Assembly (NCBI GenBank): GCA_003290165.1
Contig: QNQO01000197.1
Span: forward strand, 710,001-774,000
Length of the DNA: 64,000 bases
Source: Berberis thunbergii
Taxonomy: Eukaryota > Streptophyta > Magnoliopsida > Ranunculales > Berberidaceae
Direction of reading: 5' to 3'
The translations under genes and the position numbers were made by a program. Of this stretch, positions 22,301 through 50,449 are shown piece after piece (within the stretch, counting starts at the first letter, position 1; every line of letters starts with the position of its first letter). The notes under the pieces are model-generated. The model was not told where the DNA came from, searched no databases, and saw nothing but the letters and a program-made list of their open reading frames with translations.

Positions 22301-23327
22301 GTATGCTTCAGGAGATGAACCCACAGGGGGAGTAGCATTACCTTTTATTCTGATTCAGGTATAACTGCTTCGCTGTTAGTTACCAATGACAACTTCATTG
22401 TCTCGTCTTTGCCCTTTTTGACTTTCCATCAGATTGGCATCTAACTCCTTGTTCCCCATCTACTTTCCCATTGAATGCCATCTCCAATGTCTGGATTTCA
22501 AGGAGCTCGAGTATTTATCCTGCTGCTTGTGATCTTATCTTAGTGATATGTGAGTGGAATTTGTTTGTTCCTATTTCAACCAAGGGATAAGTAAGAATGC
22601 AGTGCACCACAATAGCTGATTTTTCTAGACCCCCCAACCCAACTCCATGTTTGATGTGCATGCATAATATTTTAAAACTATTTCTCAGCTTTTATGTCAC
22701 GATTTTAGCAGTGTATTTCATGACACTTTTAAAGTTTGGTACTCTATTCTAATTATTCCTCACCTTCTTTTTGGCAAATTATACCATAGACACGTCCTCA
22801 TGCTACTGTCGAATTGGAACTATCGGAAGATATGCAGCTGGTGCATTTCGACTTCAATAGGTATGCTAATCTAACATGCACTTTTGTTATTGTCTCTTAC
22901 CTTCTGACTTAATACCGAGTAAGATGCCGCTGTTTGTGAATTATAGTTCATCAGCTAATGGAAAGTCTACTGTCTTATTAAGCATCTCATATGTTGGAAA
23001 TTGGCCATTCAACTTCAGGTTCATAGAACTTTGGTTGATCATATTCGTGTGCTGACCACATTTTTACAAATTAATTGCAGCACCCCATTTGAGCTACATG
23101 ATGACAATTATGTTCTCAAGGCAATGGGACTTTGTGAAAGACCAAAGGCTGATGATAATGGTGCTCATAACTCCACTGCAAATGGAGGTGAAAGTGTCAA
23201 CATGCATCAGCATGACACGTACCAGTCCCGTATAAATTATCCCTTGGGTTCGTATGCTGCAGGCAGACCTCGACCTTCGCCTTCCATTCCTGGAATACTA
23301 AAAGCACGTGCCAAGCATGATCATTGA
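16346..23327 (+). CDS. DPB: E2F dimerisation partner DP (DPB-like transcription factor)
   Basis: Nine exons join in frame: 16346-16590, 16847-16923, 17031-17074, 21597-21659, 21810-21956, 22072-22140, 22260-22358, 22790-22860, 23081-23327, all with GT-AG introns, giving 353 aa. DP proteins pair with E2F to bind cell-cycle promoters in the nucleus; the pair is restrained by retinoblastoma-related protein. A Ser/Thr-rich N-terminus carries [13 protein letters not shown], then a basic PKKKRGQR (residues 84-91), probably a nuclear signal. The winged-helix DNA-binding domain spans about 97-192 and contains the family hallmark [11 protein letters not shown] (152-162). Exons 6-7 encode the leucine-rich dimerisation helix (about 193-230). 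Exons 8-9 encode the conserved [14 protein letters not shown] region. The length is a little under Arabidopsis DPB (385 aa), mainly because the C-terminus is shorter. Intron 3 (17075-21596) is 4.5 kb. A possible AATAAA lies at 23707. Confidence 0.95.
17075..21596 (+). other. Large third intron of the DP gene
   Basis: Starts GTAGGT and ends TTTCAG. No transposase or recognisable gene was found inside. Around 19975-20070 there is a GACACGTGGGACACGTGGGACAC-type block (interrupted repeats of GACAC) resembling one in SDP6 intron 2 near 43425-43520, probably a small dispersed repeat. Open frames in it do not resemble proteins I know. Confidence 0.7.
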
Positions 23328-24286
23328 CCTGTTAGTTCAAGCTTTATCACCTTGGTATGGACTAGTTTCCTAAATATTTTTTGGGGCACCCTGATCCCCC
23401 GGTGCCTCAATTCATTGTTTAACCAGTTGAAAGAATTGAAGAAAATGGGCAACTTTTGCTCCCTGTTCAATGCCTAGAAAGGAATCTTAGCTAGACTATT
23501 TTCTAGTTTGAATTCCATCATTAGCGAAAGAACTGTTTTATTGTTTTCCTTCAGTTATTTGCTCTGATGAAAAAGTATGAAGAGCAAATGTCAACATACT
23601 CATGGGTGATCCAGCGAATGTCATTGTTTATTCTCTACATACATGTCATTGTTTATTCTGAATTATGTGATTTGTAATAGATTTTCTGTCTCTATTTAGG
23701 GTAAAAAATAAAGATACAATGTCGCTTTTTTTTCAACTTTATCAGCAATTTATCTTTTCCTAGTTCATTTCCCTCTTTTATGGAGCACTGTAATGTCTAG
23801 TTTTGATGACATGAGGATTTATATACTGATGAAGCAACTGCATGTCAGTGAGTGGGCTAATAATTAAAACGTAACACTTGCTAAAAAAAATAGCCACAAC
23901 GGGGTGGACTGCCACTGCAACATATTGATCAGACAACTCCTTGTTTGCAGTGTTTGATGATGCAAAACGTAAGAGCAGAGCCAGATATTGAGACTATTTG
24001 TGGGGATTCTCTCCCTGAGATTGAGACCGTCCTCAAGGAGAGTAGCAGGGCGGATAGGGCAAGTATAGTTATAGATAAAAACAAAAAGAGTTTGTTTTCC
24101 TGCATAGGTTCCATTACCTCTAACGCAGGGTATCTAGGGTAGGAAATGTCACTCGAATGGGGAGGGAAGGTGACTGACTTCCCTCGTTGGGAGAGGCCAG
24201 AATGACTAGAACATTCAATAATACAGTGAGGGAGCTTGGAGGTGGAACAATTGGAATCACTTACGACACAAGATAGTTTTGAGTGC
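23328..24286 (+). other. 3' region of the DP gene and intergenic sequence
   Basis: A T-rich 3' region with a possible polyadenylation signal AATAAA at 23707-23712. The rest, including a short open frame at 23945-24142, is not recognised. Confidence 0.4.
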
Positions 24287-24429
24287 TTCTAGGGAGTTTG
24301 GGTCTGCTACCTGGGTGGCATTTGTACACTTTTGCCCGTCTATTTAAACACTCTTTAAATATAACCACAACAAAGGAGGGGCAAAAGGATATATTCGCCC
24401 CCCGGGCAGCAAACCCAGGCTCCCTAGAA
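24287..24429. mobile_element. Small MITE with TTCTAGGGAG ends, 143 bp
   Basis: The two halves are imperfect inverted repeats over roughly 55 bases: TTCTAGGGAGTTTGGGTCTG on the left, and on the minus strand from 24429 TTCTAGGGAGCCTGGGTTTG. Both continue into a CTTTTGCCC block. I see no clear target duplication, so the superfamily is open. Confidence 0.6.
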
Positions 24430-24749
24430 TTATACAGTTTTGTATGAAAACTTTGAGATCGAGTGGAATGGGCATATGGGGTGCTATCTTCAATTGCATT
24501 TCAATATTAAATTATTTGATTCCCATTCAATCAAAAAAACCTTGCAAAAATCTGGTATTCTAGTCCGTTATGGTAAAGAACCTTTACGACTTACGCTGAC
24601 TAGGATGTGGATGCGCAAATATTCAATACTAGTTATTTTAATCTATAACTTCAATAATAAGAAAATTAAAATTTTAGGAGATTTGACTAAAGATTTCTAT
24701 GCAAAATAATCATAAAAATATTGTAATCAAAGATTACATTCTCACAATT

Positions 24750-25607: not shown

Positions 25608-26660
25608 CAGGGGTATTCAATTAAGGATTTAAAACAATACAATGAAATCTAGGGGTATTCAAATATAGATTTTAAATGATTGTTTTATAATTCATTAAAA
25701 TCATGGGGTATTCATTTCATGATTTTTAGAAGTCCACCAAAATTAGGGAGTATTAAAAAAAAAATGAATTTGTTGACTTTATAGACTTTGATGAATTTAT
25801 ACCTTTTCAAATCCAGCCTCTTTCAAATCTGTAAGAGATAGAGAGGGGACCGAGGAAGAGGCAAACTAGTGCTCTGTTCAGTGGGATCGAAAAAGAGAGA
25901 GTTACAGAGACGAACTGAGAACTGCAATCCGTCAGCTCAGCGATCGATGCCTCTATTCTGCTTCCAAATGGTACAAATCCTAATCCCCAATCTCTAAACC
26001 CTAAACACCCAAATGCTTTGCACTTCAATTTCTTCAATGGGTTCTTCTTGTTTGCAGGGCAACAAAACAGCTAGTTGGACTCGGAATCGAAGAAGACCCA
26101 TCCAAGTTCACGCCTGCAAACCCTAGATTCCAATGTGGGAGAAATATAAAACTTGAAGACCACACAAAATCAACACCTAAGAAAATAAAGTCATAATGTG
26201 GATATTCACAAACCATAAGACTGAATAACTTAGGTGCTTGTGCCTATGATGGGAAGTGGGAATGGGTTTCAATGAAGCTATCAAATGAGATAATCTGTCA
26301 GATGGTGATATGGAAGAACATGATGTGTGCCCCTCTCAATGGTTCTTGGTTTTGACACTTTTGAGCTTGAAGACGAGAAGAAGGTGGGAATTGGGAATAT
26401 TGAGGTCAGCAATTTGATTGACGAGGAATGAGAGATGTCAGGTCTCCATTTGATGTTCTTATGGTATGTTTATATATGCTCATGGTTGCGCAAAAGTTTA
26501 ACTATATTTTAATTATAAAATTTAGAAAATTCAATAATAAAAATTCATCAAAATTTAGTTTAAAGTTAAGTGAATTCTGTAAACTTCTTTAAAATATTTT
26601 AAAATTCATTAGATTAATACTCTTTAAGAGTCTATTAAAATTCATATTGAATATCCGCTG
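25608..26660. mobile_element. PIF/Harbinger-type element carrying a captured gene fragment
   Basis: Inverted ends CAGGGGTATTCAATT (25608) and, on the minus strand from 26660, CAGCGGATATTCAAT are flanked by TAA at 25605-25607 and 26661-26663, the 3-bp target duplication of PIF/Harbinger elements. GGGTATTCAA-like phrases recur inside the left end (near 25660 and 25707). No transposase is present. Between the ends lies a fragment of a cell-cycle gene (25881-26196) and further sequence of unknown origin (26220-26460), so the element is of the Pack type. Confidence 0.8.
25881..26196 (+). pseudogene. Captured 5' fragment of anaphase-promoting complex subunit CDC23/APC8
   Basis: Two blocks joined across a GT-AG intron (25971-26057) read ELRTAIRQLSDRCLYSASKW and then LVGLGIEEDPSKFTPANPRF. 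This matches the N-terminus of plant CDC23/APC8, the TPR scaffold subunit of the anaphase-promoting complex. The expected start codon is GTG (25881), and a small insertion in the run of GA bases just after it shifts the frame. The second block runs into unrelated residues and stops at 26194. The fragment lies wholly inside the Harbinger-type element, so it was probably carried here. Identification rests on my memory of the family, not on a search. Confidence 0.75.
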
Positions 26661-27035
26661 TAAGTGAATTTAGTATCCATACAGAATAACAATGAAGAGA
26701 CGGAAAGATCGAAGAAGGTGATAGAGTTGCGGCGGTGAGAGGATGGCCAAGCGGTGTGGTGTGGTGCTCGTTGTTTATGGTGGATCTGCGCAACTGTGCG
26801 CTGGCTGTTGCGTGAAGAGATGAGCTGCTCGGTGTTGTTGATTGGTTGTTCGTGGTGGTGATGAGCTGAATCAGTAAAATGAATTGTGAAGTGGCGGTGA
26901 TGCGATATGTTGATACGATGTTGGATGCAGTTTTGTCGACGGAAAGATGGTGGTCTCTTTGTTGATGACATAGATGGTGGTCTCTCTGGCAGAGATGGTG
27001 GTGGATGCTGACATCTTCATCTCTCGGAAGCATCT

Positions 27036-27557
27036 TTGCAAAATGCCAAACAAAAGGGTGTCTTTGATTCGCAAGAGGGGTGGAGGGTGAAGCTCAATTC
27101 GCTTCTTCCCTCTCAAGGGAAATTCTTCAAACATATTAAAATTGGAGAAGATGTGTTGGTTTCTAGGAGAGTTTTGACATTGTTTGTTCTAATGACCATA
27201 GCTGATTTAAGTGATCAGCTGTTTGGGTTTCAGGATGCTTTGTTTGACAACAATGGAAATGGTCGTCTTGAATTCGCCAAAAACAATTTCACTGCTCTGT
27301 GGCCTGGAGATGGCAAGCCAAGGCTTTGGATGAACTCAATTTCAAAAATGGGTGTTATCTACAACCTCATAGTGAGAAAGGAGGAGATGTGCATTGAAGA
27401 AAGGAAAAAAAAAGTTGGTGAAAATGGATCGTTTAATGACAGAGATGAAGAGTTGGAGTTGGTGATTCCACCAGTGTTTGATTATTGCACAAAGGTTTTG
27501 TTTGATTATTGCACAAAGGTTTTGGATGCAAACAAAAGATTTGAAGAAGTGGTGGAT
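27036..27557 (+). pseudogene. 3' part of an unnamed plant gene, interrupted by the palindromic MULE
   Basis: An open frame of about 174 codons has no ATG at its left edge (in-frame stop near 27009). It resembles a family of uncharacterised plant proteins with the core GRLEF...ALWPGDGKPRLWMNS and a C-terminal VIPPVFDYCTKVLDA; I believe these are listed as DUF6817/HD-like proteins but am not certain. FDYCTKVL is duplicated in tandem (27478-27525). The frame reaches GTGGTGGAT at 27549-27557, where the palindromic element begins, and resumes after it at 35351-35377 with nine codons including a TGA stop. The tail was therefore split by the insertion. The N-terminal half is missing, so the copy was probably broken before that. 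Confidence 0.55.
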
Positions 27558-27724
27558 GAATAATTCTACAGAGCCTGTGTCTGTTGCCTGGGAGAATGCC
27601 CGGATCATCCTCGGCACGTGCTTGGGATGGTCTGTGGCACGTGAATGCGAATCAGTTTGGGCTCCAAAATCTTGGCTCCAAAAAAAAAAAAAAAATTTCA
27701 GACGAAAATCAAACCTTTTCATCT

Positions 27725-27990
27725 GGTCCTCTGCTCAAACCCCTCCTCCTCTGCTCAAACCTCTCGCCTCCTCTGCTCAAGCCGCTCCTCTGCTCAAACC
27801 TCTCATATGCTCACACCTCACGCCTCTTCTGCTCAAACCTCCCCTCTGCTCAAACCCTTCATCTGCTTCGTCATTAAGAGGGTCTGTCTGCTCAAAGGCC
27901 GCTCCTCACGCGCAGATCTGCTCAAAGGCCGCTCCTCCTCAGCTCCTCGTCACGCCTCCTCTGCTCCGCTGCTCGGCATTTGTAGGGTTT
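27725..27990 (+). repeat. CTGCTCAAAC minisatellite, left arm
   Basis: About a dozen degenerate units built on CTCCTCTGCTCAAACC, a pyrimidine-rich tract following an A-run at 27679. The right-arm partner is at about 34870-35185 and has extra units (for example a second CGTCACGCCTCC-type segment), so the arms have changed copy number independently. It is open in three frames, but this reflects the repeat. Confidence 0.8.
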
Positions 27991-28302
27991 CTTATTAAGA
28001 GGGCCTCTCTTCTTCTTCATCTTCTTCTGGTACGTTTTCTTCAACAATCACTGCTTAATATCTTAAAATTTGAATGATAATGGTAGTTTGTGTTTGAGCC
28101 ACACCATTTCGAGGGTTTGTAGAGATTTTTTTTAAAAAATTGGTTTTTTACCAAATTTGGGAAATTTTTTTTTACCTTATTTGTTTAGAAAAAATATGTG
28201 TTTCCAGATTTGTGTTTCGAAAAATGTTTTAACCAAGGAATGCTGATTGGTTTCAACAGCCTGAAACCATGTCGAAATTTTTTTTTTTTTAGCTTACTTG
28301 CA

Positions 28303-28552
28303 TATCTTCCTTTTCTTGCACAAATAGATGTTTAGTAAATGGTGTTACAATCACTAATAAAAGATGATTTTTGTGAATTATTTAGCCCTAATTTGTCACC
28401 CCATTTTGCCAAATTGTGAAACTGACCCTTGTGAGTCTCTGGATCACCCCATCTTGCATATATTCCTTTTCTTGCACGAATAGATGTTTAGTAAATGGGG
28501 TTACAATCACTAATAAAAGATGATTTTTGTGAATTATTTAGCCCTAATCTTT
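28303..28552 (+). repeat. Tandem duplication of about 150 bp, left arm
   Basis: The segment CTTGCATAT...TTATTTAGCCCTAAT occurs at about 28297-28391 and again at 28453-28548. A further partial copy (CCCTTGTGAGTCT...CTTGCATAC) is at 28875-28911. The same arrangement appears inverted in the right arm (about 34340-34600). Confidence 0.75.
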
Positions 28553-28996
28553 TATGTAACCCTAAGTACTCCATCTCTGTAAGCTTTCCTTTCTAAGTCT
28601 GTAAGTCTCCTGTACATTCTTCTTCTTTAAATAAAATCATATTATCTTATCTATTTCTGTTTTGTTTTCTCCAACCTTAACTTCAATCTACGCTCTGACA
28701 AGATCTTACAGGTCCTCTCTAAGTGTAAAGCAGAAAACTGTCTTAGAGCTGTATCGATCGATTGCAGTAGATCTAAGTTAATTGTCTTCATTGATTATCT
28801 TTGTATGCATATGGTTTAGTATACTCTTGATTCTGTATATCTTCTTCTTCTCGCCTGTTTAAATTGTGAAAATGACCCTTGTGAGTCTATAATCACCCCA
28901 TCTTGCATACCTTTATGTTAAATTTTTTTACAGAGCCTTGGCATCGATAGCTTAATAAATAAATTTTTATGTTGAAATAAGGATCTTAACCCAACA

Positions 28997-29350
28997 ATGA
29001 CATACAAGGCATATGTCGTATACCGCGGTCGTGTCCCTGGAATTTACGAAACTTGGCCAGAATGTTCAATCCAAGTAACAGGGTATAAAGGTAATTTGTA
29101 CAAGGGTTTTGCCTCAGCTGCCGAGGCTCATGCTAGTTATATGGAGTGGGTTCGCTAAGAAGTGGTGGAATATAACGACGGAGCAAGCTCATCATCTGCT
29201 GCAGAGGTGAAAAACCAGTTTGACGCTCGTGCGGGTGAAGCTGAAGCGAACAATGATAAATGGGCATTGACAAGGGATTTGATTAATGCACTGCTAGTGG
29301 TGTATCTTATGATAATGGTAGTTTTCTTGTTTAAACTTGTGGCTTTTTGA
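28997..29350 (+). pseudogene. Viroplasmin/RNase H1 N-terminal-domain ORF, left arm
   Basis: From the ATG at 28997, 53 codons encode the small domain found at the N-terminus of RNase H1 and in caulimovirus viroplasmin (core GRVPGIYETWPEC, then a basic YKGNLYKGF and an alanine-rich helix). An in-frame TAA at 29156 separates it from 63 further open codons in the same frame that end in a hydrophobic segment (VVYLMIMVVFLFKLVAF), a probable membrane anchor. Domain plus tail may be one small tail-anchored protein interrupted by the stop. In plants this domain often occurs in transposon-borne ORFs and can bind RNA-DNA hybrids. Its role here is unknown, and I see no other viral sequence. Confidence 0.65.
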
Positions 29351-30216
29351 ATGAATGTATATTAAAGATGTGATGAGACACAAATTATGTTTTGTTAACT
29401 AATGCAAAATAGTATAAACACTTCTTGAAAGTGCAAAATAGTGTACTCTTGTTGCTTGTCTACAGCATCAGTCCATGGCGATCAACTAATGGAATGCTTT
29501 ACTTGGCTTTATTCAATTTACTGACATGAATTCAGAGTTTACATTTGTAACTTATTGGCTTGATTCACATTTGTAACTTATTGGCTTGTATTGCCACTAT
29601 CAGTGTTTACTTGTATTGCTTGTATTGGCTTGTATTGCCACTGTCAGTGTTTACTTGTATTGCAACAAAGGGCAGGTCAGAGTTTACTTGTATTGCCACT
29701 GTCAGTGGAACTCCATGACTGAACAGGGAAATGAATGATTCTCTGTGTTGTATTGAGATCAAATTCTTTGTGTATCAGTTTTAATATACTGGTCGAAATA
29801 CATACTCACTGTCTGAAGATTACTAGCTTAGCTCGGTATAATTTTTTTTGCAATGTCTTGTTCTAGTGGTGATAGTAAGCTGGATATCCAATTTTATATG
29901 GTTTTGGGCATTTCTCTTGGTGTCTGCCATGGATACGTAATGTTGACATGTTCACTTAAATTAGTTTTGACTTGGAAACTCAGGCAAGTGAGTTTAATAT
30001 CAAGGTCCGAATAATTCTCTCGAAATCACAATCCTTGAATCAAACTTTTCCAATTATTGAAGCCCTGGACCCTTTTAATTGCTTCTCCAAAATGTGAAGA
30101 GCTCTTACATATTCAGTGCCACTCAAGCAAGCTATGCTAACCATGTGTTTGTGTCACTCTCAAGCAAGTTCATTTGTTTGGGTACGATGAAGTTGAACAA
30201 CACCAAACAAAAACTC

Positions 30217-30920
30217 ATGTCTTTTTAATGAAACAAACCACAGCTAGCTAACAACACCACACAAACTTTCTTCAAATATAGCAAAGTACAAGAACATAAA
30301 CTGATAAACTATTACAGATGATACTACTGCAAGTCACAAGATCCAGTTTTGGATAATTTGCTCAACATCAGACTTACATAATCTCTTTCTACATGGAGGG
30401 AAACACAGAGGACTTAAAGAAAAAGGAAGGAAAACCATGGACACATAGAGCAGTGATCATATACTAATAGAACCAGTGAAGCTAGCTCACTGCAGCAAAG
30501 AGAATCCAACTGCTGAAATGTTGACAATGCTCAAATGTTGAAATGCTGACAATGCTCAAATGCTCACAATGCTCAAATCCAACTGATAAATCACAATGCT
30601 GGAATGCTCAACAGAAATCAGATGAATCCTATCTAATGCTCAAACTGCTGAAATGCTAATGCTCAAACTACTCAAATGCTAAAATGCTAATGCTCAAATC
30701 CTAATGCTCAATGGTGAATAAATAATCCAACTTCATTACAAAGCCAATCAATCAAATAAGGCAGCAAACATAATTAATCATGTTGGCTGATTGCAAGTTC
30801 ACACACATATGCATTCACTGAAATGGTGTAATATTACAGGCTTCAAGTTCACACCATTTGTTGGCTAATATTCAGTTACAAGTTCACCATTTGGTTGCAT
30901 TCTCTGACAGTTGCATTCTC
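30217..30920. other. Left-arm-only segment of the palindrome, with ATGCTCAA repeats
   Basis: This stretch has no partner in the right arm. It includes a run of short direct repeats (AATGCTCAAATGCTGAA-like, 30525-30715) and three TTGCATTCTCTGACA-like phrases at its inner edge (30894-30940). Its absence on the right is best explained by deletion there, because the sequence at the right-arm junction (about 32650-32680) looks like a repair scar. Confidence 0.7.
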
Positions 30921-30947
30921 TGACATTTGCATTCTCTAATAACCCAG

Positions 30948-31773
30948 CCAAATTGCAGTTACATTCTGCTGATCAACTTCAACAATTCTGCTGACGGGAG
31001 CTGTTGGTTTTTTATCAACTGAAGGGTTAGGTGCCCTGGTGGGCTTCACCTGTTCACATCTGAGAATGAGAATGTCAGGAATAATTCTAAAACACTCAGG
31101 CTCAAAGTGTACAAATGTCATATGGCAAATGAGAAGGTTCAAAGTGTATTGATAGAGAACAAGCCATAAATAAACTTACAGTGGATTGATTCATATGGCA
31201 CTGATGTCGCAACTCCATGTCGTTGTTTGAAGCTGGTGGCTGCAAAAATAAATAAATAAATAAGTAAATAATCATAAGTGATAGTTACGCGTCAGTAAAT
31301 ATATTAAAAACAAACCTGAGTATTTGGATGATATGAATGCGGTGTCAAATATTCTGATCCTTCAGCTCCACTCTGGGAACAACCCTATAAATGACATGTG
31401 TACATACAAATTTAATATTCTAGACTTAAGAAATAAAATATTCATAAAAACATATTAAAAAACATACCACATTCTTCTCAAGGGCTTGATCTTTTTTTGC
31501 TTGTTTATTTTTTTTCCTTTGCATTTTTCTACCAATCTTTTCAAGTGTGGGTTGCATCCTTGAATTAGAGCGCCGGCCTTTGCTACGAACCGGTAATGGA
31601 CTATGAATGCTAGATTGCACCCCAGAACTAGTAGTGTTGGACCCAAATTCAAAACACCCATGTGAATCAACACCCTCATCACCACTATCAGTTTTGAGTT
31701 GCTCCATTTTCAAAGTCATCCATTCATGAACTTGGCATGTCTTCTTTTCATCCTCAGCGGCGTAGTCGGCCAT
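30948..31773 (-). pseudogene. C-terminal part of a FAR1/FRS-like (MULE transposase-type) gene, left arm
   Basis: On the minus strand, from the loop outward, an exon reads MADYAAEDEKKTCQVHEWM and later SPLPVRSKGRRSNSRMQPTL followed by a lysine-rich tail. This resembles the C-terminal end of FAR1-related/MULE proteins, where a helical segment precedes a PL..R.KGRP-type motif. Three small downstream exons with GT-AG borders (about 31316-31385, 31181-31240, 30948-31058) extend it to a stop. The N-terminal and catalytic parts would lie across the loop and are absent. The inverted twin is at 31811-32648. Confidence 0.5.
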
Positions 31774-31810
31774 TACACGGTTTGACAAGATGTGCAGTCA
31801 CTTCTATGAA
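31774..31810. other. 37-bp loop at the centre of the palindrome
   Basis: The only sequence separating the two arms. Both arms break inside the same codon series (ATGGCCGACTACGCC), so the symmetry centre falls inside the FAR1-like gene. Confidence 0.9.
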
Positions 31811-32648
31811 ATGGCCGACTACGCCACTGAGGATGAAAAGAAGACATGCCAAGTTCATGAATGGATGACTTTGAAAATGGAGCAACTCAAAACTGATAGT
31901 GGTGATGAGGGTGTTGATTCACATGGGTGTTTTGAATTTGGGTCCAACACTACTAGTTCTGGGGTGCAATCCAACATTCATAGTCCATTACCGGTTCGTA
32001 GCAAAGGCCGACGCTCTAATTCAAGGATGCAACCCACACTTGAAAAGATTGGTAGAAAAATGCAAAGGAAAAAAAATAAACAAGCAAAAAAAGATCAAGC
32101 CCTTGAGAAGAATGTGGTATGTTTTTTAATATGTTTTTATGAATATTTTATTTCTTAAGTCTAGAATATTAAATTTGTATGTACACATGTCATTTATAGG
32201 GTTGTTCCCAGAGTGGAGCTGAAGGATCAGAATATTTGACACCGCATTCATATCATCCAAATACTCAGGTTTGTTTTTAATATATTTACTGACGCGTAAC
32301 TATCACTTATGATTATGTACTTATTTATTTATTTATTTTTGCAGCCACCAGCTTCAAACAACGACATGGAGTTGCGACATCAGTGCCATATGAATCAATC
32401 CACTGTAAGTTTATTTATGGCTTGCTCTCTATCAATACACTTTGAACCTTCTCATTTGCCATATGACATTTGTACACTTTGAGCCTGAGTGTTTTAGAAT
32501 TATTCCTGACATTCTCATTCTCAGATGTGAACAGGTGAAGCCCACCAGGGCACCTAACCCTTCAGTTGATAAAAAACCAACAGCTCCCGTCAGCAGAATT
32601 GTTGAAGTTGATCAGCAGAATGTAACTGCAATTTGGCTGGGTTATTAG
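31811..32648 (+). pseudogene. C-terminal part of a FAR1/FRS-like gene, right arm twin
   Basis: Inverted copy of the left-arm gene piece, with the same exons and splice borders and only scattered substitutions (for example MADYATEDEKK in place of MADYAAEDEKK, and an SNIHS/SSIHS difference). An ATG at 31790 within the loop happens to open the frame. It ends at TAG 32646-32648, after which the right arm jumps to sequence found 700 bp further out on the left. Confidence 0.5.
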
Positions 32649-33530
32649 AGAATGCAATTTGGCTGAGTTTTTGTTTGGTGTTGTTCAACTTCATCGTACC
32701 CAAACAAATGAACTTGCTTGAGAGTGACACAAACACATGGTTAGCATAGCTTGCTTGAGTGGCACTGAATATGTAAGAGCTCTTCACATTTTGGAGAAGC
32801 AATTAAAAGGGTCCAGGGCTTCAATAATTGGAAAAGTTTGATTCAAGGATTGTGATTTCGAGAGAATTATTCGGACCTTGATATTAAACTCACTTGCCTG
32901 AGTTTCCAAGTCAAAACTAATTTAAGTGAACATGTCAACATTACGTATCCATGGCAGACACCAAGAGAAATGCCCAAAACCATATAAAATTGGATATCCA
33001 GCTTACTATCACCACTAGAACAAGACATTGCAAAAAAAATTATACCGAGCTAAGCTAGTAATCTTCAGACAGTGAGTATGTATTTCGACCAGTATATTAA
33101 AACTGATACACAAAGAATTTGATCTCAATACAACACAGAGAATCATTCATTTCCCTGTTCAGTCATGGAGTTCCACTGACAGTGGCAATACAAGTAAACT
33201 CTGACCTGCCCTTTGTTGCAATACAAGTAAACACTGACAGTGGCAATACAAGCCAATACAAGCAATACAAGTAAACACTGATAGTGGCAATACAAGCCAA
33301 TAAGTTACAAATGTGAATCAAGCCAATAAGTTACAAATGTAAACTCTGAATTCATGTCAGTAAATTGAATAAAGCCAAGTAAAGCATTCCATTAGTTGAT
33401 CGCCATGGGCTGATGCTGTAGACAAGCAACAAGAGTACACTATTTTGCACTTTCAAGAAGTGTTTATACTATTTTGCATTAGTTAACAAAACAGAATTTG
33501 TGTCTCATCACATCTTTAATATACATTCAT

Positions 33531-33883
33531 TCAAAAAGCCACAAGTTTAAACAAGAAAACTACCATTATCATAAGATACACCACTAGCAGTGCATTAATC
33601 AAATCCCTTGTCAATGCCCATTTATCATTGTTCGCTTCAGCTTCACCCGCACGAGCGTCAAACTGGTTTTTCACCTCTGCAGCAGATGATGAGCTTGCTC
33701 CGTCCTTATATTCCACCACTTCTTAGCGAACCCACTCCATATAACTAGCATGAGCCTTGGCAGCTGAGGCAAACCCTTGTACAAATTACCTTTATACCCT
33801 GTTACTTGGATTGAACATTCTGGCCAAGTTTCGTAAATTCCAGGGACACGACCGCGGTATACGACATATGCCTTGTATGTCAT
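33531..33883 (-). pseudogene. Viroplasmin/RNase H1 N-terminal-domain ORF, right arm twin, frameshifted
   Basis: Inverted copy of 28997-29350. It begins with the same ATG (at 33883, minus strand), but one T is missing in the GGGTTTTGCC run, so the frame shifts after the YKG motif and the alanine-rich helix is lost. The hydrophobic tail frame (33531-33719) is intact. With the left copy stopped and the right copy shifted, neither arm encodes the joined protein. Confidence 0.6.
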
Positions 33884-35350
33884 TGTTGGGTTAAGATCCT
33901 TATTTCAACATAAAAATTTATTTTATTAAGCTATCGATGCCAAGGCTCTGTAAAAAAATTTAACATAAAGGTATGCAAGATGGGGTGATTATAGACTCAC
34001 AAGGGTCATTTTCACAATTTAAACAGGCGAGAAGAAGAAGATATACAGAATCAAGAGTATACTAAACCATATGCATACAAAGATAATCAATGAAGACAAT
34101 TAACTTAGATCTACTGCAATCGATTGATACAGCTTTAAGACAGTTTCCTGCTTTACACTTAGAGAGGACCTGTAAGATCTTGTCAGAGCGTAGATTGAAG
34201 TTAAGGTTGGAGAAAACAAAACAGAAATAGATAAGATAATATGATTTTATTTAAAGAAGAAGAATGTACAGGAGACTTACAGACTTAGAAAGGAAAGCTT
34301 ACAGAGATGGAGTACTTAGGGTTACATAAAAGATTAGGGCTAAATAATTCACAAAAATCATCTTTTATTAGTGATTGTAACCCCATTTACTAAACATCTA
34401 TTTGTGCAAGAAAAGGAAGATATGCAAGATGGGGTGATTCAGAGACTCACAAGGGTCAGTTTCACAATTTGGCAAAATGGGGTGACAAATTAGGGCTAAA
34501 TAATTCACAAAAATCATCTTTTATTAGTGATTGTAACACCATTTACTAAACATCTATTTGTGCAAGAAAATGAAGATATGCAAGTAAGCTAAAAAAAAAA
34601 AAAATTCGACATGGTTTCAGGCTGTTGAAACCAATCAGCATTCCTTGGTTAAAACATTTTTCAAAACACAAATCAGGTAAAAAAAATTTCCCAAATTTGG
34701 TAAAAAACCAATTTTTTAAAAAAAATCTCTACGAACCCTAGAAATGGTGTGGCTCAAACACAAACTACCATTATCATTCAAATTTTAAGATATTAAGCAG
34801 TGATTGTTGAAGAAAACGTACCAGAAGAAGAAGAGAGGCCCTCTTAATTAGAAACCCTACAAATGCCGAGCAGCGGAGCAGAGGAGGCGTGACGAGGAGC
34901 TGAGGAGGCGTGACGAGGAGCTGAGGAGGAGCGGCCTTTGAGCAGATCTGCGCGTGAGGAACGACCTTTGAGCAGACAGACCCTCTTAATGACGAAGCAG
35001 ATGAAGGGTTTGAGCAGAGGGGAGGTTTGAGCAGAAGAGGCGTGAGGTGTGAGCATATGAGAGGTTTGAGCAGAGGAACGGCTTGAGCAGAGGAGCGGCT
35101 TGAGCAGAGGAGGCGAGAGGTTTGAGCAGAGGAGGAGGGTTTGAGCAGAGGAGGAGGGGTTTGAGCAGAGGACCAGATGAAAAGGTTTGATTTTCGTCTG
35201 AAATTTTTTTTTTTTTTTTGGAGCCAAGATTTTGGAGCCCAAACTGATTCGCATTCACGTGCCACAGACCATCCCAAGCACGTGCCGAGGATGATCCGGG
35301 CATTCTCCCAGGCAACAGACACAGGCTCTGTAGAATTATTCGTGGTGGAT

Positions 35351-35377
35351 TGTGATGTTACTGTTAGGTCACAGTGA
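35351..35377 (+). pseudogene. Last codons of the interrupted plant gene
   Basis: After the right target duplication the frame of the 27036-27557 fragment continues as CDVTVRSQ and a TGA stop. This supports the insertion point and orientation. See the entry at 27036. Confidence 0.55.
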
Positions 35378-35842
35378 AGAAGGGAAGCTGGGTTATATGG
35401 CTTCTCCTTAACGCTCTATACCGTAAAGAGAAGAGAAGATTTAGTGCTTTGTTGTTGTGTTTGATATTGAGAGATGATGTTGTATAAATACAACTTACAA
35501 GGTGGAGATACGGTTCATCACAATCGGTTGATATTACAAGTTGAGTACTAGAAGAAAACGAAGATCAAATGATTGATTTCTTCGGTAGTGATGTTGTTTA
35601 TTTCTAGGAACTGCAGGATCAAGACCGTTTCAAACGGTTTGAGTTAGGTTTCTCAAATTTTAGACATATCCACCTCTATCTATTAAAGATTTACATAAGC
35701 ATTGTTCCTCAAACTCATTCTCCTTACAAAGTTAGATCCCTGATTCTAGAGAGCGAGGGAGGGCATCCCCCGCTCCCTAGACTTAAGTTAGATTAGATTA
35801 CAAATGAGAATCAAACTTTTGTTAATTGGGCTAAAGTCACGT
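35378..35842. other. Intergenic, probably 3' flank of the interrupted gene
   Basis: No gene recognised. A short imperfect palindrome, CTAGAGAGCGAGGGAGGG facing CCCCCGCTCCCTAG at 35744-35781, resembles the ends of the TTCTAGGGAG MITEs at 24287 and 39650. Confidence 0.4.
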
Positions 35843-35851
35843 TTGTTAGAG

Positions 35852-36014
35852 CAGAAATTCTAAATGGTGAGGAAATCAGCGAGGGGGTGGTGTGACCGCT
35901 CATCCCCTCGAGATGTGCGTCTGCACCCTTGAGATGTATAGCAACACGAATCTCGAGGGAGATGAGTGGTGACACCATCCCCCTCGCTGGTTTCCTCGAC
36001 AGTTAGAAATGTTC
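35852..36014. mobile_element. MULE-type MITE, 163 bp
   Basis: A near-complete inverted repeat: GAGGAAATCAGCGAGGGGG on the left pairs with GAGGAAACCAGCGAGGGGG read from the right. A perfect 9-bp duplication, TTGTTAGAG, lies at 35843-35851 and 36015-36023. It is too short to code. Confidence 0.85.
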
Positions 36015-36205
36015 TTGTTAGAGTGCAGTTCCTTCTGATAAATCACTTTGTGTGTATTCCATCACTTTTGTCAATCAGGTGGATCATTTCTTTGAAAAGA
36101 TTGATACGACATCTCGAAAAAGGTTAAAGAATTAATAAGCAATTTAAACATACTATTCAACAAGGTTTTTTTTGTCTTTTCAATTGCATTTATGGTAATA
36201 GCTAG

Positions 36206-38053
36206 TATGTATGTTATGTATTTTACCATTCATTGTAGATTGGAACAAACGTCAAATCATAAGAATTATAGATAAAACATGGTTAGGATTGAAAGATTGG
36301 AAATGTGTTGAAGGTTGATTCATTTTTTGTGATGGTATGTTTGTAAATATAAAATATGTATAAGGGCAAAAAAAAATTTGTGTAAAAAAGTTGGTGCAAT
36401 GTAGCGGAGAGAGAAACTATTGTGTTTTTTTATGCAATGACTACTCCACACCACCAAAAATGTTTTCTCACACCATTTAAATCTCCCTCACCACCTGCTT
36501 TATTTTTTACACCACCACTTTTTCCCACACTACCAATATAAAACAAGGAAAACCATTTTTCTCCTCCTCATTCAAATCGAAACGCAAGTTTCTCGTCCCC
36601 ATTCAAATTTTTTATCTCCCCACATTGAAAACACATTTAAAATCGATTTCAACTCATTCTCTTGGTTCTATTGCTTCTTCTCTTATCGTAAAATAAGCAA
36701 GCAACATTTCCCTTATCTTGGTTCGATTGCTTCTACAACCCCTCAGATCCATTTTTCACTTCGTCTCAGATTTCGACTCCAATGCTTATGAAACAAGCTT
36801 TCAAGTTATTCATTTCTTGCCAAAAATTTCAAGAAGTTAACATAAGCAAAATTTTTAGAAAAACAAAGTTATCTAAAGGAAACTTCAGAAATATTTTCAA
36901 TTACAAAAACAAAGTAAACTTCAGAAAAAATTTCAGAAATCACAAAAAAAAAAAAAAATTGTTCGCCTGAGACAATACGAGGTTTTGCAAAAACCTCGCA
37001 TTGATCTGGACGAACAGTAAAAAAAAATTGCTAAAAATTTCCTGTTTGCCCTCGCATTGTTCCAGGCGATTTTTTTAAACAATGCGGGGTTTTGCAAAAG
37101 CTCACATTGTTATAACAACAAATTTTTTTGGACAAATTTGCGTGATTTTAGTGAAATGACTATAACTTTCTCATTTCAAAACACTTTTAAGTGATTCAAA
37201 TTGTATTTATTAGATAACTCAGAGTATTACAATATTTGTGTTTTGATCAAATTGAGAATCGGTTTCGATCAAGCACATAAGTTGGCCGAAAGTTAGGTCA
37301 CTATCCCGTTTTCATTGTGAGACAGATTTGTGCGATTTTAGTAAAATGACCATAATTTTTTCATTTCAAAACATTTTAAAGTGATTCAAGTTGTGTTTAT
37401 TAGATAACTCAGAGTACTAAAATTTTCATGTTTTGATGAGCTTGAGAATTCGTCTCAATTGAGAGTTAAAATTGGTCGAAAGTTATCCTGTTTTTAAGTT
37501 ACTATTTTTTGAATGGTGTGGGTTAATAGAAAAAAAAAATACATGGTGGTGAGACAACGCTTTTGGTGGTGTCGAGTGGTTGTTGCCTTTTTTTAATGAA
37601 CTTATATTAACTATCTACATAGTTGTTGGGGTTTCATAAACTTTGGTATCATTTAAAATATAATTTTGAAGACCTTTCCAACAAAACCAATGATCAATAC
37701 AAACACTTAAATTTCAAAATATGTATTTTATTGTTAAAATATGTAAGTATTTTAATATTTTCATGCCCAAGTATAATATTTTACAAATAAACGGATAGTC
37801 ATTTTACTATTCAAACAAAGACTCCGAATATTCAATCAATTCTAATTTTAACCGAGTTTGACTCCAAAAAAAATAGCATTTTTACCGAAAAATGGTCTTG
37901 CACCTCAGAAAAATTAGTTTACATTCTAAAATATGATTTTTTTTATGGAACTGATTGAGGGCAATGATAGAATGGTGGCGAGGGTGTTCAATGCATGATA
38001 ATTTGCACAATAAAAGTGTATGTAGAATGTCATCGGCACGGGTAATATACTGG
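36206..38053 (+). mobile_element. Helitron-like copy G, split by a MULE-type element
   Basis: Related to the 3309-15505 array but of a different subtype (AACAAACGTCAAATCATAAG near its start). The left part is 36206-36432 and the right part 37596-38053. The end carries GTCATCGGCAC and CTGG in place of CTAG, followed immediately by the next copy. The left limit is approximate. Confidence 0.6.
36433..37586. mobile_element. Non-autonomous MULE-type element, 1.15 kb
   Basis: Inverted ends of about 45 bp: CCACACCACCAAAAATG near the left edge pairs with CGACACCACCAAAAGCG from the right. An 8- to 9-bp duplication of TTTTTTTA flanks it (36425-36432 and 37588-37595). The interior has two diverged direct repeats (about 37137-37310 and 37326-37500, both with TCATTTCAAAACA and TTATTAGATAACTCAGAGTA). 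No coding capacity. Confidence 0.72.
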
Positions 38054-39367: not shown

Positions 39368-40034
39368 TATAGTGCAAAGAAAATGATAAAAAGAAATGTT
39401 CCAAAACATTCTCCATCCATCGTCTATGAACATCCCTCTTCTTCTCATGCCTCTTTCATTCTCTTCTCCCTCTCGCTCATAACCATCGTCCCTTTATTTA
39501 TTTATTTATATATTTTTGTCCATTTTTCGTGTTACTCTTAGGTATAATACGAGTATTGTTATGACATTAATTATTTATTTTTGTTTGAAGAGTAAGAAGA
39601 AATTTGTTATGACCTAAATTCATGAGTTTTGGGAATACGTTAGGAGCCCTTCTACGAAGCGAGGGAAGTAGCAAGGACCCATCTCTTTCGAGATAAGTGA
39701 TGGTGCGCAATTCGAAGCGGATTTGCTTATCTTGAGAGAGATGGATGGTCCTGGCTCCCTAGAATTTCTGATACTTTAATTAAGGGTAGTTGTCAACTCA
39801 ACAACAAGAAACGTGGATTCAGTTGAAGGAAGACAAGTGAGCTATCAAATCTTGATACTAGGGCCCCGTAGTCTCACTTAGCATATCGCCACCTATTCCC
39901 ATTTCCCAACGCAAATCATCGATCAAACAAAAGAGAAAAGTCAGACTTCTCCACACTGCGTACGTGCACCTCTCGCAACTCGCAACTAAAACAACCACAG
40001 AATCTCTCTGGTTCTCTCAGACAATCCATCAAAC
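39368..40034. promoter_or_regulatory. Upstream region of the SDP6 gene, with a small MITE
   Basis: No gene in this interval. Nothing firmly identifiable as a promoter element was seen. The MITE at 39650-39764 lies about 270 bp upstream of the start codon. The bases before the ATG (CAAACATGGCG) suit a plant start context. Confidence 0.35.
39650..39764. mobile_element. Small inverted-repeat MITE upstream of SDP6, 115 bp
   Basis: Left half GGACCCATCTCTTTCGAGATAAG pairs imperfectly with the right half read on the minus strand (GGACCATCCATCTCTCTCAAG). The ends, TTCTACGAAGCGAGGG and CTCCCTAGAA, resemble the MITE at 24287-24429. No convincing target duplication. Confidence 0.5.
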
Positions 40035-43000
40035 ATGGCGACGGCAACTCGCCTGAAGGGCTTCGGGGCGGCGGCGATGGCAGCGGCAGGGGCGTACGGA
40101 GCACTGAGCGTCAGAGGCCTGACCTTCTCGGAAAACGATCAAGGGAGCGTGGAGAGTGTTCGACGAAAGATCTCTGACGTGACCGCAAATGTTCCGTCAA
40201 GAGAGGTTCAGCAATCAGCGTTGATGGGGGCCAGTTCTGCCAACCCTCTCGATGTTCTTGTGGTTGGTGGTGGTGCTACTGGGTGTGGTGTGGCACTTGA
40301 TGCTGTCACTAGAGGGCTCCGTGTTGGCCTTGTTGAACGTGATGATTTCTCGTCCGGGACTTCTTCGAGATCGACTAAGTTGATTCATGGAGGTTAGTTA
40401 GTGGGTTGCTCTTCTTTTGTTTGACTGATTGCCTGTTTGAGTTTTGGAGGTTTTTGTTGAATGGGGTGTTCGAATTTGGTTAATAGAATGCACAATTGTT
40501 CGGTTTAGCTTTCTTGTTTGATTGGTTTCTTCAGATTCTTTTGTTGTATGGTTGCTATGGGGGTAAAGGAAAAAAGAGGAAAGATAACATTTTTAAATGT
40601 GGGGCATTGTATTTTCTGACAAAAGTGCATTTCTCCCGAAATGGCTCAGCATCTATTGTGATTAGAATAGCAAAGAAGAATGGGAACATATTTTATTTAT
40701 GCTTTATAATGCATCATAAGGAGATTTAAGAGAATTAGCTATCCATTTGCTTGCTGGATAAGAGTGGATAGCTAGTATGGATATGATTCTTTTAAGATGT
40801 TCTATTTATTTTTAAACTTACTTTATGGGCATACACATTATTTTGTCTCTTTTGTATCTTATTCTCAAAGTATGTTTTAATTTATTTGTGAAGTTCTGTT
40901 TGCTTTGCGCCGAAGATTGCCTTGGGAACAAGCTTTATGACAAGCATTAGTTCGGTGGGACACAAATTTGGGAATTTTCAATTATACAAAGCAGCATACT
41001 TTAGGAATTCATAATGGTTGTGGGCACCGGACGAGATAGACCTCATCCTAATTTCATCCCATCCCAAACGGGTTCAGGACATGACTATATGCTACTAAAA
41101 AAAATTGGGCAACAACAAATTTAAATTTATACAAGTCTAAAATTCACACCAAACATGATTCAACAATATAATACTACATGATTCAAGTCTTACACATCAA
41201 CTACATCAATAATCAAGTCTGAGGTAGTTAATACTACAAGTACATGATCATCAACAACATCATGAATCAAGTCAGACTTAATTAAAATTGATAATAATAA
41301 ATATTAAATAAATATGTTCGGGATGGGTTGGGTTGAATTGAAAATCTTTATCTTGACCTCATCCCACTCTAGATCGGGACGGGATTGGGATTGGGATGGG
41401 TTTGATCAATTCCAGAAGGATCCGGAAAAAATCAGGATGAGATCGGGATCGTGGGATGGGATGCTCATCCCTAATTCATAAGAACTGATCCATTATTGAC
41501 ATAGCTTTGTTCTTTATTTTTGTTGTTAGTGGATTTGATTTTTTAACTATTAGTAAACATGACATTACAGGGGTTCGTTACTTGGAAAAGGCCGTCTTTA
41601 ATCTAGACTATGGGCAGCTTAAGCTGGTTTTCCATGCACTCGAGGAGCGTAAACAAGTTATTGAGAATGCTCCACACTTATGTCACGCTTTGCCGTGCAT
41701 GACTCCATGTTTCAACTGGTTTGAAGTAGTGTACTATTGGATGGGATTGAAACTATACGATGTGGTCGCAGGAGCACGCCTTCTGCATTTGTCTCGGTAT
41801 TATTCTGCACAAGAATCTATTGAGCTCTTTCCTACCCTTGCGAGGAAGGGAGGGGATAGAAACTTGACAGGTACAGTTGTATACTATGATGGCCAGATGA
41901 ATGACTCTCGGCTTAATGTCGGGCTTGCATGTACTGCTGCATTAGCTGGTGCGGCAGTGCTTAACCATGCTGAGGTTGTATCCTTTATTAAGGATGACAA
42001 TAGCGACCAAATAATTGGTGCACGCATTCGAAACAATCTTTCAGGTACATCAACCATAACATTTTCAATTTGTTGCTATCATTTAATGGATTACATTATT
42101 TTTTTCTGCCTGGTACTATTGAGTCATTTCTTTGGACGTTATGTCCTTTATCAAGTAGATAAAATTTGGTTTCTCTAAAATTGTTGGATAATTGATAAAA
42201 TACACCTATGAAGGCACTGAGTTTTGACTCACATCGGTGGAGCAAAGGGATAAATTTAGTATGCAACACTCACTTACCATTTGGAAATTATCAGGCAGTA
42301 GTATTAGGTCAAGTGGGGAAAACAAAATTTATATTTGTGCCTACCAAAAACTTTAAAAAACACGTGCAAGTCATTCTAAGTTTTTTTTTTTTGACATTTT
42401 AAAAGGCCAATGTCTGATTTTTAATGCACACCTATTTGGTTGTGGAGTTCTAAGTCACAGAGTTGGGGGCAAAGGATTGAATGAGTCCATGTTGTCTACA
42501 ACTGGGTGTACAGATTTGAACCTTACACCCTTAGAAGATAACATGTTATAAGCGTTTTTTAGGGATTAATTTGGTAATTCATAAAATACATGGGTTAGTC
42601 TGCAATTAGTATCTGTAGGGTGTATATGTTGAAACCGTACACCCAGGAGCAGGTGATCTCCATTCAAGGTTGAATACTTCATTCTACCTAATTGGCAACA
42701 AGTGGACTTTTCCCATTGATTGATCTGATTCTTTTCAACCTGAAATTTTGAATCCAGTAAGGCAAAAAGGTTTAATAGATTGGTTCCTGAACATAATGTC
42801 ATGAGCCAAATTTTTATTGGATTGGGTTTACCATGGTTTAAACTGAAAAATCCTTTGATTATAGCTACGTATCTTAGATTATTATACTTATAATTGAACC
42901 TTTAAAAGTTGCCGTTAGATATCATTTCAATTAGATATGTACAATGAGATATCTTTACATTGTAGTTATATATAGTACTATCGAAATTATTCTGATGAAC

Positions 43001-46000
43001 ATTAAATTATTCTGATCGTTTTATTTAAGAAATGAACATTAAATTATTCTGATCGAAATTACATGTTACCGATATGGTTAGATATTTAAAAAGTATATAT
43101 GATGCTATCATTTTACTTGAGATAACATTATTTAATATCAGATACAACCCCATATGCAATTAAACTTATTGGATATGGAAGTTTATTAATGTTCGATCAA
43201 TTTGGGATTGGTTTTGAATGATCCATTTGTTTCACTGAACCACTACTATATAACATAGATTTGGAGCCCATAAAATCAAGTTGAAGAAATAAACTTTTTT
43301 GCGTACAAGAAAGATGATGAAAATTGTTGAAGGGCTATCATTTGTACTTTTAAAGTCCTCTCCTGGATAATATCTGAGATTTTGATTGACAAATTGTTTT
43401 CTTTGTTGTCGTCAAGTATGCACAGACACGGACACAAGCGTCGTGTCGGACAAGGACATGACACAGTGACTCGACAATTTTCCAAAACTAGGACTCGGGG
43501 ACATGGGACACAGCGACACGTCAATACCTTTATATATATAAATCATATGAACATAAACAATATTTAATTAAGAAAAATTTAAGTAAAAAGGAACAAGAAG
43601 TATGAAGATGAAAATGAAGTACAAATTGTGCTAGAAAAGAAAAAAAATGTAAAAAAATGTGGAGAAGAAGATAACACTCCGTCGCAAGAAAAGAATCAAA
43701 GTAGAGTAGAGGAGATAAGAAACAAAGGAGAGAAGAAGAAGCATAGATTACCTCTATGCTTCATCGCCCTCTTTATCTTGCATCGCATTGAAAGCTTTTC
43801 ACTTTAGATGAATTAACAACCTTCAAATTAGGTGGTTATATTCGCCCGCCTAAAAGTAAAAAATAAAATAAAGTTGGTTGTCGAGTCTTGATTGTGTTCT
43901 AATCGATTTTTTGAGTGTGTCAGAGGCGTATTCGACACGTCGATTGCGCTGACTATGTCTTTGATACCTGCCGACACGTTGACCATGTGTCGGATACGTG
44001 TTAGACACTGGTACGACAAGTTTTCCAAAGAGTCCTGGCTTCCTTGGTTGTCATTGAAAGATGATGAAAATTGTTGAAGGATTGTCTTTGTACTTTAAAA
44101 GTCCTATCCTGGAAGATATCAGAGATTTTGATTGATAAAGTGTTTTCTTTGTTGTCATTGAACACTTGGAGGTGTCACCCCTTGGCATATGATTGCCCTG
44201 ACAATTCCTTGCTTTTTCAGTTAGCAACAGAAATGCACCCAGAATTTGAATCTTACTGAAAAGCACCCAGATGTATTTTAGCTAGGGATACTTAACCGTC
44301 TTCTACTTGATTTGATCCTTACTTTCTATTGAAGTGCATCAGGCAAAGAGTTTGATACATATGCCAAAGTTGTTGTGAATGCGGCTGGACCATTTTGTGA
44401 TGCTGTGAGGAAAATGGCCAACAAAGATGCACCACCGATGATCTATCCTAGTAGCGGTGTACACATTGTTCTCCCTGATTATTATTCTCCTGAAGGAATG
44501 GGCTTAATAGTCCCTAAAACTAAAGATGGGCGTGTTGTTTTCATGCTGCCGTGGTTGGGAAGAACGGTTGCAGGAACTACTGACTCAAACACTGAGATCA
44601 CAATGCTTCCTGAACCACATGAAGATGAGATACAATTTATACTAGATGCCATCAGTGATTATCTTAATGTTAAGGTATGCGTTCCTGTTTTTGTTTTGAA
44701 AATCTATTGATCTTATTTTCACATTATTATTCCTTTCCACATGATATATTTCTTTTCTAGCTTATGCTTTGTGTATTTATTTGGTGACAGCTCACAAAGA
44801 AGTACTGTAGAAACTTAAACCTATTATTCTTCCCTTTCTGCTGGTGTTTTTATTTTTGTAATTTACAGGAGTTGCGTTTTACATGACCAAAGAGTCCACT
44901 TGCACCCATCGACCATATTCAAGGAATGCAGTGTTTTTTTTATCAGTCAAACTCAGGCCATATATTAAAGAAAAAACAGAAGAATACAAGCTAATGAGTG
45001 AGAAGTTCGCATAGCTAAAGCGAAGAGAAAAACAAAGCTAGAAAAAAAAAGGGGGAAAAAAAACAAAAACAAAAAACACTCTGCCTAAGACCTATAACAA
45101 GTAGAAAACGCTGTCCCAGTTAAACACACGGACATGGAATACCATAAACAAGGAACATAGTTAAATAATGTATCATTATTAAATAGTGTATATATATCAT
45201 TATTACAATGGTTAATACAACATCCGATACCTAAGTCAATATTATTTTGTTGTTTTATATAATAATTTCATTCTATTATCGCACGCTTTCTCTTGATTTT
45301 TCATATAACTATAGTGTTAATGTTAAAATATTTAAAAAGAGGTTTATGAACTTCTTTCTTTTCCAGATGGTTATGGTTTTGTGACAGAAAACAAATTACT
45401 ATACATTAATATATGCACTCCCAAAAAGATGGTCTCCACTGAAAGCCAAAGCACTAGCTCACAAGTGATCTACAACACTTCTTTCACAAAATATTTTATC
45501 AAGGAGCAAAATGGCCAAGGATTAATTTTTTTTCCCAAAATGCACTATGCATGTATCTTCAGCATTACCAGATTATCGTAACTTTACCAATTAATTAAAC
45601 TCTGGATGATATATTGAAGGTTAGCCTTTTAATTTATTTGTTTTTGTATGATTTTGGTCTCTTCCTGATAAGATTTGGTTCTTACCTTATTGGTAATATG
45701 GTATATGGCATATCCAATAAATTTATGAATGTTTTGGTATATGGAAATCTTTTTTTTTTTTAATCAAAAATGAAAAACGAAAGAGTCTTGAGAAGCCAAG
45801 GCGTGGAGGTTTAATATTCTCTCTCCTTTCATTAAGAAAAACGTATATTTTTTGTCACGATATTTCATCAGCATTATTGGCATCACACTATCCAGTTGAA
45901 GATATGTGCTCATGCATAATTATATTTTTGTTATTTTTGGGGTGTACATTTGTACACGCAATGTACTAAAAAAATCTACTGAAAAGCCAAATCTTCAAGG

Positions 46001-49478: not shown

Positions 49479-50449
49479 ATTGAATGCAGTGACTCATTAC
49501 AGCAATGATTGTGTGAAGCCTCAAATTACATGGTTCCTTACACTTGAGATTGATAGGGAGATAAATGCATAGAAGAAAATGGCGGTAATTGACCAGGGGA
49601 ACTGTTTTGGAGGGAAATTGAAATTATTTTGAGTGCTACTTAATAATCTTAGTGCACTGATTCGGTGCAGCTTCAGTTGTGTACGTATTCACTGGAACGA
49701 TTACAGTTTTTATAGAGAACGAAGTCTTCATTTCATCGTACTATTTGGGAAAAATAAAAAGTAGTTTTGCTTGTCATTTTTTTACATTGTTCATGAAGCA
49801 TCTCCCAGTCATCCCTAGGACGTTATGGAAATATATTTCCAACAAAAGTTTGATTCTCTCAGTACCTTGGTAAACTCTTGTACTCCATTGCTGTTTTTCT
49901 CCTCAGACTGCAAAATGTTGTGGTCTTATCTCTGAAAAGGAGTTCTGGTTGGGTTATATTTTTTAGTCATCTGGTGGAGTTTGGTTGAGCTTTAAAGGAA
50001 CAAAAGGAGTTTTTAAGTCCATTCCAATTTTTTTGAGCAGATAGTTCGTTTTTAATGAAATTGTTTCATTTTGGTTCAAAATATACAACAAACGCTCCGC
50101 AGGTTTTGATTGCAAGAGGAACTTCCTCTATTTTTGTGGCAAAATGTCAGATTGGAGTCGGAAAGGGGTTGAGCCGTTGAGGGAGCTCTTAATGTTTAGG
50201 GAATCGGAGTGTTTTGCATTTCGTGAAGGTGGTCAGTCTGCACGCCTTAAAACAACAATAAATCCTTGATTTACTCCCTTTTGTGCCCACCTTACCTATA
50301 TCCTCCATGAACCTGAAGCCCATGAGACTTTCTGCACTCTAATGCACTTCTGTCATCACACTGAACAACCACCGTCACCATCTTGCTCCTCTTAGTCCCA
50401 CTTATTTTGAGGATGAACAACCTTCCAGTTGTTACATGTGTTCACTTGA
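49479..50449 (+). other. 3' region of SDP6 and intergenic sequence
   Basis: T-rich 3' flank with a possible AATAAA at 49753-49758. Beyond it no gene or repeat was recognised up to the next Helitron piece. Confidence 0.4.

Follow-up and report, generated by a model that had tools for sequence, protein, structure and literature searches.

In the genome of Berberis thunbergii, a 64,000-nucleotide stretch of contig QNQO01000197.1 (positions 710,001 to 774,000; hereafter the window, numbered from its first base) contains a 7.8-kb element that forms a near-perfect palindrome between two identical 9-bp repeats. The element is probably a non-autonomous Mutator-like palindrome that was formed by inverted copying of one half of its parent after a break, and its transcripts are predicted to fold into a long hairpin. 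Self-BLAST of the window and an alignment of the arms resolved positions 27558-35341 into a single inverted repeat, composed of a left arm of 4,217 bp (27558-31774, plus strand), a right arm of 3,532 bp (31810-35341, minus strand) and an unpaired loop of 35 bp (31775-31809), which is crossed by an open reading frame (ORF) at 31766-32155. The main self-BLAST pieces had E = 0.0 at identities of 89-98% with gaps counted, so that a chance origin of the inverted repeat is impossible. The first bases of the element are GA and the last are TC, and directly outside them lies the target-site duplication GTGGTGGAT, with its left copy at 27549-27557 and its right copy at 35342-35350 (both on the plus strand), the two being identical at 9 of 9 positions. 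Both the inverted repeat and its flanking 9-bp duplication are therefore confirmed, as are the near-complete palindrome with arms of 4.2 and 3.5 kb and the perfect duplications outside both ends that an initial annotation of this DNA had described; the loop, given there as 37 bp, is 35 bp in the arm alignment.

The arms themselves are not uniform. The outermost 169 bp (27558-27726, plus strand) show no difference in the arm-to-arm comparison, and are followed by a subterminal repeat block of CTCTGCTCAAAC-type units with indels between the arms (27727-27990, plus strand; tandem repeat scan and alignment), whose bounds were chosen by us from the tandem arrays at 27727-27867 on the left and at 34875-34932 and 34996-35172 on the right. 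In total, tandem arrays occupy 468 of the 4,217 bases of the left arm. A direct duplication of 96 bp at 28297-28548, with copies 97% alike within the left arm, is present in both arms and is therefore likely to be older than the palindrome.

The element is likely to belong to the Mutator-like group, as the initial annotation had proposed. The perfect 9-bp duplication falls within the range of 9-11 bp by which Mutator-like elements are recognized, and the terminal inverted repeats are long. In addition, a 152-bp short element resembling a miniature inverted-repeat transposable element, with ends related to those of the palindrome (a 33-bp match at 82%, together with pattern matches), was identified 3 kb upstream at 24282-24433 (no strand assigned); it is bounded by the duplications ATAGTTTTG and ACAGTTTTG, which agree at 8 of 9 bases. 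The similar ends of this short element and its near-perfect 9-bp duplication support the assignment to a Mutator-like family. With up to 3 mismatches allowed, a joint end pattern has four matches in the window and none in 100 shuffles; three of those four matches had served to write the pattern. Three collections outside the plants, which are uninformative on the host genome, yielded no copies: none was found in plasmid records, none in IMG/VR with the exact 31-base end pattern, and none in bacterial and archaeal genomes with a degenerate 29-base end pattern.

Pieces of two genes are carried by the arms. The first encodes a ribonuclease H1 N-terminal domain (PF01693), which reads inwards in the left arm (28976-29158, plus strand; Pfam E 9.7e-18); its copy in the right arm (33671-33904, minus strand; Pfam E 1.6e-13) contains a frame shift that corresponds to a 1-bp indel at 29107/33774 in the arm alignment. 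For the fragment of an identified host gene that characterizes Pack-MULEs, this domain would be a candidate. The second is the 3' piece of a gene that reads outwards and has, by eye, apparent spliced exons, with GT/AG borders in the right copy: the left copy (30936-31774, minus strand; from ORFs) is truncated at the centre of the palindrome, and the right copy (31778-32648, plus strand; from ORFs and the sequence read by eye) ends in a stop codon at 32646-32648. Its reading frame passes through the loop into the right arm, where the parent gene likely continued upstream, and it is mirrored in the left arm, which argues that both copies came from one parental half. For this gene piece the initial annotation had suggested a FAR1-like product, a label that receives no support from Pfam or protein searches. 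No Pfam match was obtained; among proteins of 0.55-1.75 times 600 amino acids there were 50 candidates and none at E <= 0.001, and among those of 0.55-1.75 times 130 amino acids there was one candidate and none at E <= 1. Its presumed likeness to C-terminal FAR1 sequences is unconfirmed by any search.

Between the arms, 31 substitutions were counted in 3,468 aligned bases (0.9%), a count that leaves out the loop and a one-sided stretch, and the alignment contains indels of 36, 21, 9, 30, 1 and 1 bp. The one-sided stretch comprises 709 bp that are found only in the left arm (30218-30926, plus strand; self-BLAST and arm alignment). Opposite it, the right arm holds nothing except six filler bases, GCCAAA in left-arm orientation (32658-32663, minus strand; junction comparison). 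The 13-bp motif CAGCCAAATTGCA is present in two copies at this right-arm junction, with starts 26 bp apart, and in a single copy in the left arm (range checked: 30101-31000); the second copy at the junction consists of the six filler bases and their neighbours. Repair of a deletion with templated filler is a known outcome of end joining, and the 709 bp were likely lost from the right arm by a later deletion of this kind, from which it follows that the palindrome was likely near 8.5 kb originally. An insertion of the 709 bp into the left arm is less likely, as the filler in the right arm, the doubled CAGCCAAATTGCA and a tandem array at 30894-30937, which crosses the boundary of the stretch in the left arm, all speak for deletion.

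The substitutions are unevenly distributed along the arms. In the outer arm (27558-28478) 18 of 882 positions differ (2.04%) and in the inner arm 13 of 2,586 (0.50%), with the cut at 28478 having been picked after the data were seen. A fitted change point was placed after 28756, with 1.81% divergence outside and 0.43% inside, and this contrast was reached by a fraction of 0.003 of 2,000 permutations; with the repeat block at 27727-27990 left out, it was reached by 0.05 of 2,000 and is marginal. Gene conversion between the arms would reset the divergence count as a measure of age.

As to its origin, the parent would have been an element with an ordinary terminal repeat of roughly 0.9 kb at each end, and a break would have occurred inside this element during excision or replication. 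Both sides would then have been filled by repair from the same half, through fold-back of the broken strand or through synthesis primed in the opposite inverted terminal repeat. The two gene copies end at nearly mirror-symmetric positions, so that one parental half is likely to have been copied twice. Under gap repair in place, the second side would prime in the inverted terminal repeat and copy the same half, the old target-site duplication would be kept, and the terminal repeats would be left older and more diverged than the newly copied interior. This route is slightly favoured because the outer arm is, in part, seen to be more diverged than the inner one, and the pattern of differences leans towards a palindrome that formed by repair in place rather than one that moved as a palindrome. 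The initial annotation had proposed that one end was copied in inverted form and that the resulting palindrome was later mobilized as a whole. Its first step is retained, since it best accounts for a gene that is truncated at the centre and mirrored; its second step is less favoured, as repair within an element already inserted here would yield identical duplications and the higher divergence of the outer arm points to such repair. Derivation of both ends from one parental end would follow from the mirrored arms, and the two original ends may survive in the outer arm. In animals, single-copy gene-capturing elements with terminal inverted repeats have mostly been ascribed to gap filling that involves template switching but no transposition (PMC8277862).

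A possible but tentative alternative is that the fold-back of a broken, resected strand took place elsewhere, that the whole arm was copied out to the element end, and that the completed palindrome then jumped to its present site and created the 9-bp duplication there. This scenario overlaps with the fold-back route described above and differs from it by the later jump; the fold-back product would have had to transpose in order to acquire the flanking duplication. The perfect duplication at the exact ends of the element agrees with such a jump, as do the two outer ends, which are intact and identical over 169 bp. The 35-nt loop is also close to the median of 35.5 nt given for the loops of fold-back inversions in yeast that is wild-type for MRE11 and SAE2 (PMC7467729). 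The same scenario predicts even divergence along the arm, whereas divergence is roughly fourfold higher in the outer arm, a contrast that is marginal without the repeat block. It is quite unlikely that the element simply represents a foldback-type family (FB-like, of the Mutator group) in which long terminal repeats span the element and no special repair event took place here: foldback ends have been described as composite, with internal tandem repeats, in contrast to the 468 of 4,217 left-arm bases in tandem arrays noted above, and the present arms carry apparently spliced gene pieces that are cut at the centre. A false palindrome from a hairpin read or a collapsed repeat is highly improbable, even though such assembly artefacts are known for long reads. 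A missed adapter would explain neither the unlike sequences that flank the element on its left and right, nor the 9-bp duplication lying exactly at its ends, nor the 31 substitutions between its arms; the arms are also told apart by several indels and by the 709-bp deletion with filler that is confined to the right one.

If transcribed, a palindrome formed by inverted copying of one half might act on related sequences. For the innermost 1,731 nt, the predicted fold has an energy of -1,561 kcal/mol and contains 848 pairs, compared with -353 to -426 kcal/mol for three stretches of the same length in the window, and so strong a predicted fold is expected because the sequence is palindromic. RNA across the element would be double-stranded and would then be diced into small RNAs, which would direct methylation of the element and of relatives sharing its ends or gene pieces, as has been proposed for Mu killer; such relatives are the predicted targets. 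A kilobases-long hairpin RNA might in this way silence the relatives of the element. A stronger proposal, that the element is a second natural Mu killer, a palindrome from inverted repair within a Mutator-like element that has since acted as a source of hairpin RNA keeping its own family and host genes akin to its gene pieces methylated, is rather unlikely. No known RNA was found in 26500-36500 at Rfam gathering scores. Among the 20 transitions between the arms, only 6 lie at CG, with 2 at CHG and 12 elsewhere. The observed/expected ratio of CpG is somewhat low in the element, at 0.43, compared with 0.55 for the part of the window to its left and 0.71 for the part to its right; taken together, these values are weak evidence of past methylation.

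Several points weigh against the reading of the element as a Mutator-like palindrome made by inverted copying and able to yield hairpin RNA. A six-frame Pfam search of the left arm found no transposase domain; non-autonomous copies can do without one. The outermost 169 bp, being identical between the arms, are a misfit with uniformly old terminal repeats, and the divergence contrast, marginal without the repeat block, could stem from mutation-prone repeats or from gene conversion. The 35-nt loop suits fold-back as well as end-joined gap repair. For transcription, a read-through promoter is not evident because the flanking gene piece is itself a fragment. One study of Mu killer, moreover, found read-through sense transcripts from a flanking gene in plants that fail to silence, whereas silencing plants had antisense transcripts with start sites within the locus; minor longer transcripts are allowed a contribution through long hairpins (PMC3440606). 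A flanking read-through promoter would, on this analysis, be neither the sole nor the best assumption for transcription of the present element. The parallel with Mu killer drawn by the initial annotation holds for structure, in that gene copies meet in an inverted duplication at the centre; for silencing it is a prediction, and the published read-through sense transcripts belong to plants that fail to silence.

The insertion site is adjoined by a partial copy of a plant tetratricopeptide-like gene (27012-27500, plus strand), with 66% identity to residues 41-201 of its best relative (P0001). Of 76 candidate proteins compared with the open frame at 27012-27560, 35 are related to it at E <= 0.01. 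Eight of these relatives carry an organism name, in every case that of a flowering plant (among them grape, apricot, tea and maple), and two are named tetratricopeptide-like or tetratricopeptide repeat proteins. Only the matched residues 41-201 of the 321 in P0001 are present in the flank. Judged by P0001, the insertion lies about 50 bp past the matched part, and weaker matches to two other relatives (P0007 and P0012) reach 27560. No further significant pieces of the flanking gene were detected on either side of the element with the five relatives tried, and an intact gene running into the element is ruled out, both gene ends being lacking. The element thus sits in or just beyond a gene fragment, and the tetratricopeptide-like fragment at 27012-27560 may itself be a moved one. 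Counted from the first base of the duplication, the frame would reach a stop after eleven codons if the flanks were joined, and reaches one after four in the presence of the element. Just before the insertion, the fragment contains a perfect 24-bp in-frame tandem duplication at 27475-27524 (FDYCTKVL repeated).

Other features of the window lie farther from the element. A DP-like exon at 22959-23324 scored below the Pfam cut-off. Exons at 39990-49569 (plus strand) encode FAD-dependent oxidoreductase (PF01266) and alpha-glycerophosphate oxidase C-terminal (PF16901) domains, and are taken by us to form a glycerol-3-phosphate dehydrogenase gene. A fragment with the plant mobile domain (PF10536), a domain often tied to transposons, is located at 6623-7015. 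At 9050-10250, nested imperfect inverted and direct repeats of about 71-82% identity look like an older foldback-type cluster; they include self-palindromic stretches whose centres are near 9604, 9728 and 9925.

Among known systems, Galileo of Drosophila resembles the present element in that some copies are almost all terminal repeat and internal sequence has been recruited into the inverted ends, the longest ends being found in copies without transposase; it differs in belonging to another superfamily (P), in its 7-bp bounding sequences and in ends of at most about 1.26 kb, as given in the accessible part of its description (PMC3573991). Pack-MULEs and plant Mutator-like elements (MULEs) with extra terminal repeats share duplications of 9-11 bp, long inverted ends and internal gene fragments, but in the sections available these MULEs are described with additional or tandem terminal repeats rather than arms that meet at the centre (PMC3310237). 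No other plant MULE of the same palindromic form was found among the matches listed from open-licence papers, mostly as titles and opening lines of abstracts. The Foldback elements of the Mutator group (such as Tm1 and Tetris) have long inverted ends, duplications of 8-10 bp and inverted ends that make up nearly the whole element, a feature shared by the palindrome. Their ends are described as mainly composite or tandem modules, in contrast to the tandem share of the left arm given above, and the present element differs further in carrying mirrored gene pieces.

A close architectural counterpart is Mu killer of maize, a well-known transposon that rearrangement has converted into a heritable silencer of its own family. 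Mu killer is an internally deleted and partly duplicated Mutator element with both terminal repeats from one end. A silencer of its type has partial gene copies joined head to head as a central inverted duplication, to which the mirrored gene 3' piece corresponds here. The gene so duplicated would be the transposase of the family; no recognizable transposase was found in the arms described here, and the gene piece gave no match. The halves of Mu killer were sequenced as 1.8 and 1.3 kb, compared with arms of 3.5-4.2 kb here, and attempts to span its centre failed in that study, while the centre of the present palindrome has been sequenced (PMC3440606). The B. thunbergii element would represent a complete natural palindrome of Mu killer architecture in another plant, with its junction and a later repair scar still readable, so that the birth of such silencers could be studied from sequence and their repeated acquisition by plants would become testable.

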